DNA from: Acidobacteria bacterium RIFCSPLOWO2_12_FULL_66_21
Lineage (GTDB): Bacteria; Acidobacteriota; Vicinamibacteria; Vicinamibacterales; 2-12-FULL-66-21
Reading direction: 5' to 3'
DNA: 64,000 nt
Assembly (NCBI GenBank): GCA_001767455.1
Contig: MELC01000075.1
Span: forward strand, 62,001 to 126,000
The position numbers and the translations under genes were made by a program. Below, piece after piece: positions 36,811-42,497 of the stretch. The notes under the pieces are model-generated. The model was not told the DNA's origin, did no database searches, and worked only from the letters and a program-made list of their open reading frames with translations. Each line of letters starts with the position of its first letter. Positions within the stretch are counted from its first letter, which is position 1.

Positions 36811-37413
36811 TTATTTCTTTTTCCCCTTCGCCGTGATGCCCAGCTGCACGGCGACGCCGAGCAGGCCGAGCACGATCAACGCCAGAAGGTCCCCTCTCGT
36901 GTTCGGCAGCGGATCCAGCGGGTACACGCGGTACACGCTGCGGCTCGCCGCCTCCGCCGCCGCGCGGCTTCCCATGAGCGCCGCGCCCCCGACGATCGCT
37001 GTCTGCGCTCCCCCGAATGCGGTCGCCACGATGATCACGTAGCGCTGCAGCGCGAGCGCGCCGAGCGCGCCGAGCACCGACAGGATGATGACCGGAATCA
37101 GCCCCGGCTCGCGCCCGAACGCCGCCCACACGACGTGCGCGGCAAGCGCGCCGATGCCCGCGCCAATCAGCGCCACGCCCACGAAGTACGCGGCAATCAG
37201 GAGCAGCGCCCCGACGATGCCGCCGCCGAGCGCGGCAAGCAGCATCCACATCGTGTGGTCCGTGCCCATCGCCGAGCTCGCGATGAGCGCGCCCAGGATG
37301 AACCCGTAGATCCCCAGGACGACGCGGAAGACGCGGTAGCCGGCGAAACAGGAGAGCAGCCCGCCCAAGACGAGAATGATCGCCGCCGGCAACTGGAAAG
37401 ACGCGGGAAGCAT
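36811..37413 (-). CDS. DUF4203-like multi-span membrane protein
   Basis: A 200-residue protein with six or seven hydrophobic helices, opening with PAAIILVLGGLLSCFAGYRV, the hallmark of the DUF4203/TMEM198-like family, and a short basic end. No function is established. Its start codon is only 25 bp from the divergent UPF0104 gene, so promoters overlap the coding ends. Confidence 0.7.
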   Translation of the reverse strand: MLPASFQLPAAIILVLGGLLSCFAGYRVFRVVLGIYGFILGALIASSAMGTDHTMWMLLAALGGGIVGALLLIAAYFVGVALIGAGIGALAAHVVWAAFGREPGLIPVIILSVLGALGALALQRYVIIVATAFGGAQTAIVGGAALMGSRAAAEAASRSVYRVYPLDPLPNTRGDLLALIVLGLLGVAVQLGITAKGKKK

Positions 37414-37438
37414 AGCCAGCCGATTATATGATGGCGGC

Positions 37439-38467
37439 GTGCCGCCGACCGCAGGACGTCAGTTCACGCCAGCAGGAATCGTCTCGGCCGTGGCCGGCCT
37501 CGCCTTGTTCGTGTGGCTGGTCTGGAGCGTCGGCCCACGGGAAGTCGTCACGGGATTCCGGCAGATCGGCTGGTGGCTGCTGGCGATCCTGGCCCTCGGA
37601 GGCCTCCGGTTCGCCGTGCGCGCGTGGGCGTGGACGCTCACGATTGAGCCGCCGCACCGGTTGCGGTACGCGGACGCATTCATCGCGGCGGTGTGCGGGG
37701 ACGCTGTCGGCAATCTGACACCGCTCGGTCCCGTGGTGGGCGAACCCGCCAAGGCCGCCTACGTGCGCGACCGCCTGCCTCTTGACATCGCGTTCACCGC
37801 GCTCGCGATCGAGAACGTGTTCTATACGCTGTCGGTCGCGGCGATGATCGCGGCGGGCACGATCGCGCTCCTCGTCACCGTCAACCTGCCGCTCGGCCTC
37901 CGCGAGTTCAGCGAGGCGGCCGTCGCGGCCATCGTCGGGCTCTTCCTCGCCGTGGCATGGCTGCTGTGGCGGCGTCCCGCGCTGCTCGGCGCGCGGACGC
38001 CGGAGGCGTCCACGCGGACGAAGATGCGGGCGCGGCTGGAACGGCTGCGCGCGATCGGGCAGGACATCTACACCTTTCGATCGCGGCGGCGCGGCGCCGT
38101 GCCGCCCATCGCGCTCGCGGAGCTCGCCTTTCACGTGCTGGGCGTGGCGGAGAAGCACCTGACGTTGTGGCTGATCCTCGGCACGCCGCCTCCCCTCGTC
38201 TATTCGTTCATTGTCGAAACCGCCGACCGGATGATCACGGTCGCGTTCAAGTTCGTGCCGTTCCAGTTCGGGGTGGGCGAGGCGGGAACCGGCGCGGTGA
38301 CGGCGATACTCGGCCTGGGTACCCAACCCGGCATCACTCTCCAAGTCGTGCGCAAGGCGCGCATGGGTATCTGGTCCCTCGTGGGTATGGCGTTCCTGGT
38401 GCGCCGCGGCCTGACCGCCCGCCGGATTCTGGAAGACGACGCCCTCCACTCCTCCCGCCCGCGCTAG
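37439..38467 (+). CDS. LPG-synthase-TM/UPF0104-like membrane protein
   Basis: A 342-residue protein with about eight helices of the flippase-like lysylphosphatidylglycerol synthase transmembrane family (AAVCGDAVGNLTPLGPVVGEPAKA is the signature with NLTPLGPVVGEP, and later FKFVPFQFGVGEAG). GTG at 37439 gives the shortest sensible start. The soluble synthase domain is absent, so it probably moves a lipid or glycan rather than synthesising one. A related domain occurs in the fusion protein 1 kb downstream. Confidence 0.78.
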   Translation: MPPTAGRQFTPAGIVSAVAGLALFVWLVWSVGPREVVTGFRQIGWWLLAILALGGLRFAVRAWAWTLTIEPPHRLRYADAFIAAVCGDAVGNLTPLGPVVGEPAKAAYVRDRLPLDIAFTALAIENVFYTLSVAAMIAAGTIALLVTVNLPLGLREFSEAAVAAIVGLFLAVAWLLWRRPALLGARTPEASTRTKMRARLERLRAIGQDIYTFRSRRRGAVPPIALAELAFHVLGVAEKHLTLWLILGTPPPLVYSFIVETADRMITVAFKFVPFQFGVGEAGTGAVTAILGLGTQPGITLQVVRKARMGIWSLVGMAFLVRRGLTARRILEDDALHSSRPR

Positions 38468-38692: not shown

Positions 38693-39439
38693 GTGATTCC
38701 AGTTCCGTCCGCTCGCGTGACAGATGCCGTTGTGCTTGCCGCCGGCAATGGCGACCGCTTCCTCAACGGCACGCACCACTCCAAACTTCTTCAGCCCGTT
38801 CTCGGCGAGCCGCTCATCGTCCGGACGCTGACGACCGCCGCCGAAGCGGGGGTGACGCGCTTCCGCGTAGTGCTCGGATACGAGGCAGACGAAGTTCGCG
38901 CCGCCGTGGAGCGTGGCCTGCCGGGGGGCGCGTCGGTCGGTTTCACGCACAACCCTGAATGGCATCTCGAAAACGGGGTGTCGGCGCTTGCCGCGCGCGC
39001 CTTCTTCACAGATCGGCACTTCGCCCTGCTCATGGGCGACCATCTGTTCGAGCCGGCCGTCCTCGCCTCGTTGCTGCGGGCGGACCTGCAGCCGCAGGAA
39101 TCGATGCTCGCGGTCGACCCGCGCCCGGCGGCGCCGGAGATTGCCGCGGAGGCGACCCGCGTTCGTCTCTCGGGCGATCGCATCACGGCCATCGGCAAGG
39201 ACCTGCACCCCTACGATGCGCTCGACACGGGGCTGTTCGTGTGCGCGCCGGCGCTGTTCGGGGCGCTCGAGACGGCGCGCGCGGCCGGCGACACGACGCT
39301 CAGCGGCGGCATCCGGCGGCTCGCCGAACAGGGATTGATGCGCGCGCACGAGGTCGGGAACGCCGTCTGGTACGACATCGACACGATTGCCGATCTCGAA
39401 TCGGCCGTCGCCCTGGTGGGAGAGCCGGAGACCGCATGA
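38693..39439 (+). CDS. Sugar/inositol-phosphate nucleotidyltransferase
   Basis: A 248-residue NTP-transferase with the N-terminal signature VVLAAGNGDRF and a later lysine (HSKLLQPVLGEPL), then MGDHLF with the metal aspartate. It resembles CTP-dependent inositol-1-phosphate cytidylyltransferases (IPCT), and the next gene encodes a CDP-alcohol phosphatidyltransferase fusion, overlapping by ATGA. Together these suggest a CDP-activated polyol headgroup. Other nucleotides and sugars cannot be excluded. Confidence 0.78.
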   Translation: MIPVPSARVTDAVVLAAGNGDRFLNGTHHSKLLQPVLGEPLIVRTLTTAAEAGVTRFRVVLGYEADEVRAAVERGLPGGASVGFTHNPEWHLENGVSALAARAFFTDRHFALLMGDHLFEPAVLASLLRADLQPQESMLAVDPRPAAPEIAAEATRVRLSGDRITAIGKDLHPYDALDTGLFVCAPALFGALETARAAGDTTLSGGIRRLAEQGLMRAHEVGNAVWYDIDTIADLESAVALVGEPETA

Positions 39440-41757
39440 CCCCTCGTCACGACACGCACCCATCGACGTCGCGCGCGATCCACGCCGGGGCGCTCGCGCT
39501 CGGGGTGTTGCTTTTTTCCGGCGCGCTGTATTACATCAACTTCAACACGGCCGTCGGCACGATCAAGCGCCTCGGCCTGGCGCTGCCGCTCGCGATCTTC
39601 TTCAGCGCCGTGTGGCACCTGGCGCGCACGTGGGCGTGGTCCTGGTGCTTTCCGCGGCCCCGCACGGTCAGTTTCGCGAGACTGGCGCGCGTGCGGCTGG
39701 CGGCTGAGGCCTTCAGCTACCTGACGCTGCGCGGGATTGCCGGGGAGCCGCTCAAGGTCGTGCTGCTCGGCGACCGGGTCGACGCGCGCCAGGCGACCGC
39801 CGCGGTTGCGCTCGAGCGCCTCGCCTACATGGTCGGCACCACCATCATTGTCGGCATCGGATCGATCCTGGCGATCGCGGGTCTGCCGCTCACGACGGCG
39901 TGGTTCCACGTGTTCCGCGCCTTTGCCATCACCGCGGCGGTGCTGGCGGCCCTCACCGCGGTCGTGATCTCCGGGCGCGGCACCTACCTCCAGGCGGGCC
40001 TGGAGCGTTTCGATCGGATCGCGGGCACATCGCTTCGCGCCGGCCGGGTGTCGCGCTTCGTCGCGGCGGTCGAGCGGCAGATGCTCGAGCTCCTGCGCGG
40101 AAACCCCGTGCGGCTCGCCGTTCTTCTCACGGCCACCTGCGCGGCCTACGCGTGCATGGCGCTCGAGGCGTGGGTGATCCTGCGCGCCACAGGGGCCCCG
40201 ATCACGCCGAACGGCGCGCTGGCGGTCGAGACGTTCTCGCGCGTCGCGAGCTTTGCGTCGGCGTTCATCCCGGCGAATCTCGGCGCGCTCGAAGCGTCCA
40301 GCCTGGCGGCCGTCGCGGCGGTCGGCGCCATCGGGGGCGGCGCCGCGCTCGCGCTCGCCCGTCGTCTTCGCGGTCTGTTCTGGGCGGGGCTCGGCCTGGC
40401 GATCTATCCGCGCCACTCGCGAAGCGCCGGGCACGCGTCCATCGAGGACACCGCGCCGCCGGCCGTCGGCGACGGGCAGTCCTCGACGCTGCTGTATTTC
40501 CCGGGCGCCGCCGATGTGCTCGTTCCTCCATCGGCGATCCTCGCGGGGCTGCCGCTCTGCGAGCGGGTGCTGCGTCCCGCGCTTCGCGCCGGCTACAGCC
40601 CGATTGTGGTGTGGGCGCCTGACTGCGGGTGCGGTGGCAAGGACGGCAAGCGGCTGCGCCGGCTGGCGGCACAGAGCGGCGGGCACATCACCGTCGCGCG
40701 CGACGAGCCGGCCTGGCGCGCCGCGCTCGCGCCGCTCGGCCCCGGCGAAACCGTCACGGCCATCGGGGCGGGCACGATCGTGTCGACGGCCCTTCTCGCG
40801 GAGGCGCGGGCGCTGCGCGCGGCGGACGGCGAGGCGCGCGACGTCGCGGCCGGCCCCGCCTGGCCGGAGAGCGGCGTGCTGCGCTTCGCCGCGGCCGATG
40901 CCCTGTCCCCGAACCGCGTCCTGTCGGAGCTGGCGGTGCGCCGCGCGCGCGCGCTGCCGCTGCCGTCAGGCAAGGACGTGTCCGACGGGCGCGGCCATCT
41001 GGCGCTGCGGATTGGCACACCCGCGGATCTCGCGGAGGCCGAGCAGACCATCCGGCGGTCGAGCTACAAGAACACCGACGCGAAGGTCGCCCGATTCAAT
41101 CGCCGCCTGTCGCTCCCGATCAGCATTGCGCTCATCCGGACGCCGCTGACCGCGAACCAGCTGTCCGTCATTCTCGTAGCGCTCGGGTTCTACTCGGCGT
41201 GGCTGTTCGGGACGGGCCACTATATGGCGGGCGTGGTCGGCGGGTTCCTGTCGCTCGCCGCGAGCGTGCTCGACGGCTGCGACGGCGAGATTGCCCGGTT
41301 GAAGTACCAGGAGTCGGCGCTCGGCTGCTGGATCGAGACCTTCGGCGACTACGCCTATTACGTCGCGGTCTTCGTGGGGCTGACGGCGGGCGCGGTCCGC
41401 CGCACCGGGTGGGAGGGCTTCTACTGGCTCGGCGGCGTGGCGCTGGCGGGCACGCTGATCTCGTTCGCGCTGCTGATCTTCCTCCGCACGAGAATCACCG
41501 CGGGGCGCCCCGACAAGCTGCACGCGATCGCCAGGGAACGGTTCAAGGCCGAACCGACCGCGTGGTCGAAGATCATCTGGAAGATCTCGTTCGTCGCCAC
41601 GCGCGCGGCCATGCCCTACGGCATCTTCGCGCTCTCGCTCCTGCACCTGCTGCCGCTGGTCGTCGTCCTCGCCGCCCTCGGCGCGAATCTCTACTGGGTG
41701 AGCCTCGTGCTGAAGCTGCGGCACTTACTGGGCGCGGAAGAGACGGTGGCCGCTTAA
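39436..41757 (+). CDS. Flippase-like/CDP-alcohol phosphatidyltransferase fusion
   Basis: 773 residues in three parts. About 15-320: LPG-synthase-TM/UPF0104 helices (YLTLRGIAGEPLKV signature). About 335-540: a soluble NTP-transferase-like region (LLYFPGAADVLVPPSAILAG) without the NTPase signature. About 560-770: CDP-OH-P transferase with D-x2-DG-x2-AR-x8-G (DGCDGEIARL...ALG), but Glu in place of the third Asp (CWIETFGD). The fusion and the adjacent IPCT-like gene point to synthesis of a polyol-phosphate lipid, possibly with its own translocation. Product unknown. Confidence 0.75.
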   Translation: MTPRHDTHPSTSRAIHAGALALGVLLFSGALYYINFNTAVGTIKRLGLALPLAIFFSAVWHLARTWAWSWCFPRPRTVSFARLARVRLAAEAFSYLTLRGIAGEPLKVVLLGDRVDARQATAAVALERLAYMVGTTIIVGIGSILAIAGLPLTTAWFHVFRAFAITAAVLAALTAVVISGRGTYLQAGLERFDRIAGTSLRAGRVSRFVAAVERQMLELLRGNPVRLAVLLTATCAAYACMALEAWVILRATGAPITPNGALAVETFSRVASFASAFIPANLGALEASSLAAVAAVGAIGGGAALALARRLRGLFWAGLGLAIYPRHSRSAGHASIEDTAPPAVGDGQSSTLLYFPGAADVLVPPSAILAGLPLCERVLRPALRAGYSPIVVWAPDCGCGGKDGKRLRRLAAQSGGHITVARDEPAWRAALAPLGPGETVTAIGAGTIVSTALLAEARALRAADGEARDVAAGPAWPESGVLRFAAADALSPNRVLSELAVRRARALPLPSGKDVSDGRGHLALRIGTPADLAEAEQTIRRSSYKNTDAKVARFNRRLSLPISIALIRTPLTANQLSVILVALGFYSAWLFGTGHYMAGVVGGFLSLAASVLDGCDGEIARLKYQESALGCWIETFGDYAYYVAVFVGLTAGAVRRTGWEGFYWLGGVALAGTLISFALLIFLRTRITAGRPDKLHAIARERFKAEPTAWSKIIWKISFVATRAAMPYGIFALSLLHLLPLVVVLAALGANLYWVSLVLKLRHLLGAEETVAA

Positions 41758-41763
41758 GACAAC

Positions 41764-41898
41764 GCCAAATTCCAAACTTCAAACTTCAAAGGCATTTCAA
41801 ACTTCAAATATCAAATTTCAAACGTTCGATTTTGGTTTGGAGTTTGGAGTTTGGAGTTTGGAGTGGGTTTGGAGTTTGGAATTTGTAGTTTGGAGTTG
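41764..41898. repeat. Heptamer tract TTCAAAC/GTTTGGA
   Basis: A 135-bp AT-rich tract between the fusion gene and recR. The left half is CTTCAAA/TTCAAAC units, the right half GTTTGGA units, which are roughly inverse. It is strikingly AT-rich against the GC-rich background and can fold on itself. Confidence 0.85.
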
Positions 41899-41900
41899 AC

Positions 41901-42497
41901 TCAGACTTCCCTGCGTCCCTCCATCGCCTTGTGCATCGTGACTTCGTCGGCGTACTCGAGGTCGCTGCCGACGGGCACGCCCATGGCGATGCGGGTGACG
42001 CGGACACCGAGCGGCTTGAGCAGTTTGGCGAGGTAGATGGCGGTGGCCTCCCCCTCGACGTTCGGGTTGGTCGCGAGGATCACTTCTTCCACGCCGCCTT
42101 TGCCGACGCGCTCCAGCAGGCCCTTGATCTTCAAGTCGTCCGGGCCGACGCCGTGGAGGGGTGACAGCGCTCCCATGAGCACGTGGTACAGCCCCTTGAA
42201 GTCGCGCGTCTTCTCGACGGCCGTCACGTTCTCCGGCTCCTCGACCACGCAGATCATGCGGTGGTCGCGGCTGTCGTCGGTGCAGTAGAAGCAGGGGTCG
42301 GTCTCGGTGATGTTGCTGCAGGTCGAGCAGTAGGTGACGCGGTCCTTGACCTCGCGCAACGCGTCGACGAGGCGCTCCACGTCCTCGCGCGGCGTCTTCA
42401 GCACGTGGAAGGCGAGCCGCTGCGCCCCCTTGGCGCCGATGCCCGGCAGGCGTTGGAGCTGTTCGATGAGCCTGGTCAGGGGATCGGGACGCGACAT
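41901..42497 (-). CDS. recR: Recombination mediator RecR
   Basis: A 198-residue protein with helix-hairpin-helix ([15 protein letters not shown]), the four-cysteine zinc finger ([16 protein letters not shown]), the Toprim acid (CVVEEPENV), and a Walker-like C-terminus ([15 protein letters not shown]). It loads RecA with RecFO. Last gene of dnaX-ybaB-recR, overlapping ybaB by one base. Confidence 0.97.

Follow-up and report, generated by a model that had tools for sequence, protein, structure and literature searches.

The subject of this work is a two-gene unit on the + strand, at positions 38693-41757 of a 64,000-nucleotide stretch of a soil Acidobacteriota genome (the whole of this stretch is referred to below as the window). 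The unit encodes a stand-alone cytidylyltransferase and a membrane protein, in which a flippase-like domain is followed by an inactive cytidylyltransferase-like domain and a CDP-alcohol phosphotransferase (CDP-AP) that carries a glutamate in the place of its third catalytic aspartate. We tentatively propose, with slightly less than even confidence, that this two-gene unit makes and exports an inositol phospholipid by means of CDP-inositol, a Glu-type CDP-AP and a fused flippase. The domains, their fold, the conserved Glu and the conserved gene set are matters of observation, and the structural and comparative claims presented here are firm.

The first gene (38693-39439) encodes a protein of 248 residues with a match to NTP_transf_3 and an intact LAAGNGDRF loop. 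It shares an ATGA start/stop overlap (39436-39439) with the second open reading frame (39436-41757), which encodes the three-domain fusion protein of 773 residues. The coupling of the two genes through ATGA had been pointed out in a sequence-only reading of this DNA and is confirmed by the positions of the reading frames; similar start/stop overlaps are found in four of the related loci (L040, L045, L054 and L055). The same fusion recurs in other, independent genomes, both within the window's order and in the Terriglobia, which rules out a sequencing or frame artefact.

The CDP-AP signature of the fusion, DGCDGEIARLKYQESALGCWIETFGD, is located at residues 613-638 (41272-41349, + strand). Seven of the eight positions of the strict class I signature, D1xxD2G1xxAR...G2xxxD3xxxD4, are matched by D613, D616, G617, A620, R621, G630 and D638; at the eighth, D3, there is Glu634, encoded by a GAG codon at 41335-41337. 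The strict signature is broken likewise in every Glu-type relative. Since the break is confined to D3, the fusion is a variant of the CDP-AP family. In an alignment of 42 proteins with no gap at this position, residue 634 is Glu in all 25 Glu-type proteins and Asp in all 17 others, and the seven other signature residues are invariant throughout; an Asp displaced by misalignment is thus ruled out. The sequence-only reading had noticed the replacement and had raised the prospect of a subfamily that conserves it. Both points are borne out, as the Glu falls exactly at D3 and is found in all 25 aligned rows as well as in all further Glu-type relatives retrieved. About 45 distinct Glu-type proteins, with zero intermediates, were collected through a phylum search, a genome-collection scan, and order and family searches; the collection scan used two patterns, one of which held GCW[LI]E and favoured the Glu group. 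All six of the other CDP-AP motifs readable in this genome have Asp. Further traits are fixed in the aligned Glu subfamily, namely C631 and W632 before the Glu, Y642 after D4, R684, and P692; the CSDGEVAR, DEMDGML and other side branches have the Glu but lack one or more of these traits.

The role of D3 is known from related enzymes. In xlCHPT1, D1 and D3 each bridge both Mg2+ ions, and substitution of Ala for any of the four Asp residues reduces the activity to less than 20% (PMC10182977). In PgsA1 the carboxylates of D3 and D4 move during substrate binding (PMC6506517). Because Glu retains the carboxylate and is one methylene longer, the simplest reading is a working, re-spaced second metal site. 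The selection pattern would fit an active enzyme: the ratio of nonsynonymous to synonymous polymorphism (pN/pS) ranges over 0.31-0.46 in the CDP-AP domain and 0.34-0.60 in the flippase, as against 0.56-0.81 in the NTP-transferase domain, which is inactive. The flippase and CDP-AP domains are under purifying selection, and the CDP-AP domain is the slowest-evolving portion of the fusion in most comparisons.

The architecture of the fusion was examined using an AlphaFold model built from the 42 aligned proteins of the window and the related loci. The model has a mean predicted local distance difference test score (pLDDT) of 85 and a predicted template-modelling score (pTM) of 0.70, the latter leaving the relative placement of the flippase and the transferase uncertain. 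Domain 1 (residues 21-312; 39496-40371) is an LPG_synthase_TM, or MprF-type, flippase that matches PF03706 at 1.2e-14 (55 bits, cut-off 33.4), and the N-terminal part of the model (residues ~32-325) superposes on MprF 7duw with a Z score of 19.2 over 268 residues. Domain 2 (residues 349-541; 40480-41058), with a pLDDT of about 95 over most of its length, has a fold matching AF2299, IPCT, GlmU and IspD; the active-site loop AGxGxR was sought in this domain and none was found. Domain 3 (residues 545-766; 41068-41733) has the six-helix core of a CDP-AP. It matches CDP-OH_P_transf (PF01066) at residues 572-695 with 23.9 bits, for a gathering cut-off of 22, and its fold also matches PIP synthase 5d92 (Z 21.4) and PgsA1 6h5a (Z 17.6). 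Residues 349-766 superpose on AF2299 (4o6n) with a Z score of 27.2 over 317 residues and a root-mean-square deviation of 2.8 Å; the comparison with IPCT-DIPPS 4mnd gives a Z score of 22.3. From the AF2299 and MprF superpositions it follows that the middle and C-terminal domains form one AF2299-like unit with the flippase added in front. The flippase-like helices and the degenerate NTP-transferase-like region named in the sequence-only reading, which had suggested structure prediction as a check, are therefore both real domains of the model. No Pfam or NCBIfam match to the C-terminal aminoacyl-phosphatidylglycerol synthase domain of MprF is present in the fusion, where the CDP-AP takes its place, and the cut-off for HpnL (TIGR03476) is missed with 52 against 196 bits.

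The likely donor is indicated by the partner cytidylyltransferase. The best NCBIfam match of the 38693-39439 product is IPCT/DIPPS (1.4e-28), and its best solved relatives are the IPCT structures 2xme (5e-17), 4mnd and 4jd0. When aligned with the IPCT halves of bifunctional enzymes, it retains every residue that canonical IPCT domains conserve: AAGxGxR, N87, NGxS at 94-97, MGDH at 114-117, T155, GK at 168-169, DTGxF at 178-182 and WxDxD at 226-230. In the same alignment the upstream cytidylyltransferases as a group keep these conserved residues, MGDH, T155, GK, DTGxF and WxDxD among them. The earlier assignment of the window protein as an IPCT-like nucleotidyltransferase holds. In the tree it is placed near a partner from another locus (I_L064) and other upstream genes, with weak support for the deep forks. 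It is the sole IPCT-like protein found in this genome, which also encodes one inositol-phosphate synthase on a separate contig (C71). The residue set, the IPCT structures as best matches, the single copy and the synthase together make CDP-inositol the likely donor in this genome. The cytidylyltransferases paired with the CSDGEVAR branch (L065, L066 and L069) depart from the IPCT residues at many positions, as do those near L073 and L059, and the donors of other Glu subclades are probably different from CDP-inositol. The Glu may accordingly mark the acceptor or the coupling to a flippase, and not inositol. Co-occurrence with inositol-phosphate synthase was tried as a test for inositol and rejected, since the synthase is present in 20 of 24 Glu-type genomes but also in 233 of 396 genomes of the phylum and in nearly the whole order.

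The acceptor can be approached through comparison with DIPP synthase. Canonical IPCT-DIPPS proteins in the alignment carry a D4-R-x-x-D and an R-D-x-R motif. Neither DRxxD nor RDxR is found in any aligned Glu-type member, which have DYxYY and R[CAS]xx instead. Arginines in that part of PIP synthase are thought to bind inositol phosphate (PMC4634129), and we infer that DRxxD and RDxR are acceptor-binding motifs. The loss of these charged partners would make an inositol-phosphate acceptor unlikely and favour a neutral lipid alcohol. With the motifs of DIPP synthase absent, the fusion is not a DIPP synthase; it matches the NCBIfam family NF041135 (IPCT/DIPPS) at 1.3e-15 with 57.4 bits, far from the cut-off of 580 bits.

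The same parts are found together in other genomes. Among Glu-type loci whose upstream sequence is long enough to tell, most have an intact cytidylyltransferase gene that overlaps the Glu gene or abuts it (L040, L042, L043, L045, L047-L051, L053-L056, L058, L060 and L061). When the flippase is not fused, it is encoded by a separate neighbouring gene in L012, L018, L055, L062, L065, L066, L130, L131 and L134. The last three, from Acidobacteriaceae, have the order flippase, Glu enzyme and non-IPCT cytidylyltransferase. Because the three parts stay together though their order varies, they probably act together. The conservation of this set, fused or unfused, in many genomes favours the earlier suggestion that a lipid is both made and translocated. 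The further suggestion of an unusual polyol lipid is not supported in that form: the residues of the partner point to plain inositol phosphate, and a nearly identical set in Bacteroides has already been proposed for inositol lipids.

A few additional observations were made at these loci. L130, L131 and L134 form a second Glu-type branch, the DEMDGML branch, with the signature DEMDGMLARIKF...TWLEGFAD, and one Edaphobacter genome (G404) has an enzyme of this branch together with two fusions. Two fusions (L052 and L053) are carried by Edaphobacter aggregans DSM 19364. On both sides of the Glu-type fusion, the Terriglobia cassette (L045-L061) also encodes an Exo_endo_phos enzyme, a secreted protein of DUF5686/LolA-like type and an outer-membrane protein of TonB type that carries CarboxypepD_reg; an Exo_endo_phos gene is also located near the unfused Glu types L055, L059 and L062.

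These elements can be put together into a mechanism, in which we offer the chemistry as a well-supported prediction and infer the donor, the acceptor and the flipping. The 38693-39439 enzyme would convert CTP and inositol-1-phosphate to CDP-inositol. The CDP-AP domain would then take inositol phosphate from CDP-inositol and place it on a membrane alcohol, most likely diacyl- or dialkylglycerol, with Glu634 serving as a metal ligand in the stead of Asp and D638 as the catalytic base. The product would be a phosphatidylinositol-type lipid on the cytoplasmic side, and the MprF-like domain of the same chain would deliver the finished lipid to the outer leaflet. The inactive cytidylyltransferase domain may be a remnant of an IPCT-DIPPS-like ancestor that is now a structural cap, as in AF2299. 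In a generalized form, about which we are somewhat more hesitant, the proteins would constitute a new family of one-chain, MprF-like synthase-flippases: a Glu CDP-AP committed to lipids would receive its CDP-alcohol from a co-translated cytidylyltransferase and hand its product to its own flippase, and exchanging the partner would give different subclades different head groups.

There are other ways to interpret this unit. The machine may be the same with another head group, such that glycerol phosphate, another cyclitol or a polyol phosphate is activated, attached and exported. Other Glu subclades do have cytidylyltransferase partners of a plainly different kind; CDP-glycerol is bound by AF2299, the nearest of the solved structures (PMC4634129); and in Mycetohabitans the same three gene types are found beside aminoethylphosphonate genes. 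The partner in this genome, however, keeps the full IPCT residue set and has IPCTs as its best solved relatives, and we consider a different head group unlikely here, though deserving of serious thought. An improbable variation concerns the acceptor, which would be polyprenol or another carrier lipid, with the flippase exporting the head group on its carrier for incorporation into a polymer of the wall or surface. No conserved glycosyltransferase or polymerase is found beside the cassette, and the model matches MprF, a phospholipid flippase, even if LPG_synthase_TM proteins also occur outside phospholipid pathways (the weak HpnL match is of this kind) and the Terriglobia loci add their DUF5686/LolA-like secreted and outer-membrane proteins beside the cassette. 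The common ancestry and fold with IPCT-DIPPS (4mnd and the NCBIfam match above) would suit a variant DIPP synthase with a soluble di-inositol phosphate product and some other job for the flippase-like domain. We regard this as quite improbable in view of the motifs lost in every aligned Glu type, the constant link to a flippase, and a score of 57 against 580 bits. The effect of Ala at any of the four Asp residues in xlCHPT1 raises one more scenario, that the Glu has disabled the transferase and left a flippase with only a regulatory, ligand-sensing domain. This is very improbable: the Glu is fixed, the other catalytic residues including D4 are invariant, the CDP-AP is the slowest-evolving part in most comparisons, and an active cytidylyltransferase is kept alongside.

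It is worth pointing out that several observations weigh against the proposed synthesis and export of an inositol phospholipid. Eukaryotic CDP-APs with lipid acceptors carry extra C-terminal helices, and AF2299, the solved homologue, is described as not processing lipids (PMC4634129); the extra helices are absent from the window protein. The adjacent IPCT is missing in two fusion genomes, G269 (L044) and G408 (L057), both of which encode an IPCT elsewhere, and in L062. Being nearly universal in the order, inositol-phosphate synthase is weak evidence by its presence, and the pairing of other Glu subclades with non-IPCT cytidylyltransferases means that the Glu is not tied to inositol. LPG_synthase_TM domains are likewise widespread, with six in this genome, and mostly lack a proven substrate.

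The Glu is linked to the inactive domain. The AGxGxR loop is missing from the cytidylyltransferase-like domain of every Glu-type protein, and the canonical members with an intact loop (L025, L087 and others) always have Asp. A third set of proteins combines an inactive NTP-transferase domain with Asp; proteins that have lost the IPCT active site are therefore more common than those with the Glu, which is nested within the inactive-domain set. In the CDP-AP tree the Glu rows are on one side of a branch and the canonical rows on the other, with weak deep support and with an Asp protein (L017) among or near the Glu rows; a single origin of the Glu would be compatible with this tree. Nearly all Glu types are from Acidobacteriota, the exceptions being L059, from a metagenome-assembled genome that bears the label Deltaproteobacteria, and L062, from Bacterium HR10, which is unplaced. 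Their occurrence is patchy: a sample of 150 genomes from the Edaphobacter family has 7 with a Glu type, and the fusion is present in 7 of 162 genomes of the window's order. Fused flippases are seen in two clades that are not sisters, Vicinamibacterales and Terriglobia. The CDP-AP tree joins unfused Blastocatellia with fused Terriglobia (98/91), which implies two fusions, or one fusion followed by a split, and the flippase tree is indecisive on the count. Another fusion partner of this enzyme family was seen in L021 (Acidobacteriota genome G278), a 725-residue open frame in which an Asp-type CDP-AP with an inactive NTP-transferase domain has about 340 extra N-terminal residues that resemble, by eye, an ATP-grasp-type ligase.

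Three known proteins resemble parts of the fusion. AF2299 of Archaeoglobus fulgidus (4o6m, 4o6n and 4q7c) also has a cytidylyltransferase-like domain followed by a six-helix CDP-AP, but it has Asp at D3 (AWLDGVLD) and lacks a flippase domain. IPCT-DIPPS (4mnd; NF041135) shares the two-domain ancestry, and its IPCT half resembles the separate upstream gene; in the fusion the IPCT half is inactive, with that gene in its place, D3 is Glu, DRxxD and RDxR are gone, and a flippase has been added. MprF, the lysyl-phosphatidylglycerol synthase and flippase (7duw and 6lvf), similarly places a head-group enzyme and an LPG_synthase_TM flippase in one chain, whereas the synthase of the fusion is a CDP-AP, not an enzyme using aminoacyl-tRNA, and the two halves are joined through the NTP-transferase-like domain.

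As for pathways, Jorge, Borges and Santos (2015) reportedly described in Rhodothermus marinus an IPCT and a CDP-AP that move inositol phosphate onto dialkylglycerol in a CDP-inositol-dependent manner; we know of no flippase fusion in this ether-lipid inositol pathway. Heaver et al., citing the Rhodothermus pathway, proposed an NTP transferase and a CDP-AP for CDP-inositol lipids in Bacteroides (PMC9246714). The Bacteroides/Prevotella cluster described there likewise brings together an NTP transferase, a CDP-AP and an LPG-synthase-like gene, and a carboxypeptidase-regulatory-like gene is found near it, as in the Terriglobia loci. Unlike the window, its genes are unfused, with an inositol-phosphate synthase and a HAD hydrolase adjacent; here no synthase is adjacent (the copy is on C71), and no HAD hydrolase is among the flanking genes scanned. 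A Sphingomonas plasmid has a CDP-AP, an inositol-phosphate synthase and an NTP transferase in overlapping order, the CDP-AP having Asp. On a plasmid of Mycetohabitans endofungorum (L122, 4932-10393), genes for a CDP-AP, a 2OG-Fe(II) oxygenase, an LPG synthase domain protein, a cytidylyltransferase, aepX and aepY are in a row; this CDP-AP has Asp at D3, and the arrangement suggests a phosphonolipid pathway that has a dedicated flippase. Small amounts of phosphatidylinositol have been reported for the acidobacterium Occallatibacter bavaricus (PMC12935467).

The surroundings of the unit contain two more features. A separate LPG_synthase_TM gene encoding 363 residues (37376-38467, + strand; PF03706 at 5.8e-20) is located 226 bp upstream of the pair, and in L040 and L042 the pair is likewise preceded by relatives of this gene, which group with it in a tree (100/99); this only suggests that it belongs to the unit. 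Downstream, between the convergent fusion gene and recR, there is a long imperfect palindrome of TTTGGAG-type heptads (41758-41902) with a folding energy of -66.2 kcal/mol (z -10.6). The 13-mer TTTGGAGTTTGGA occurs 125 times in this genome, often in paired orientation, compared to 0 times for the reversed control, which identifies the palindrome sequence as a dispersed repeat family. Scans for promoters and terminators gave no signal above chance.

The pathway idea itself is not new. The fusion of an MprF-like flippase with a CDP-AP and the subfamily with a fixed Glu appear new; no paper bringing these parts together was found in the open literature, although such a negative says little. In the Bacteroides study (PMC9246714) the search motif was the canonical DX2DGX2AR...GX3DX3D. 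Searches with such strict motifs would miss the Glu subfamily, and part of bacterial inositol-lipid synthesis may thus be overlooked. The natural, subfamily-wide change from Asp to Glu at a bridging metal ligand offers a ready test of how strict the two-metal site is. A chain that combines synthase with flippase would be the second arrangement of the MprF type, and the fusion supplies a substrate that can be tested for one of the many LPG_synthase_TM flippases still unassigned.

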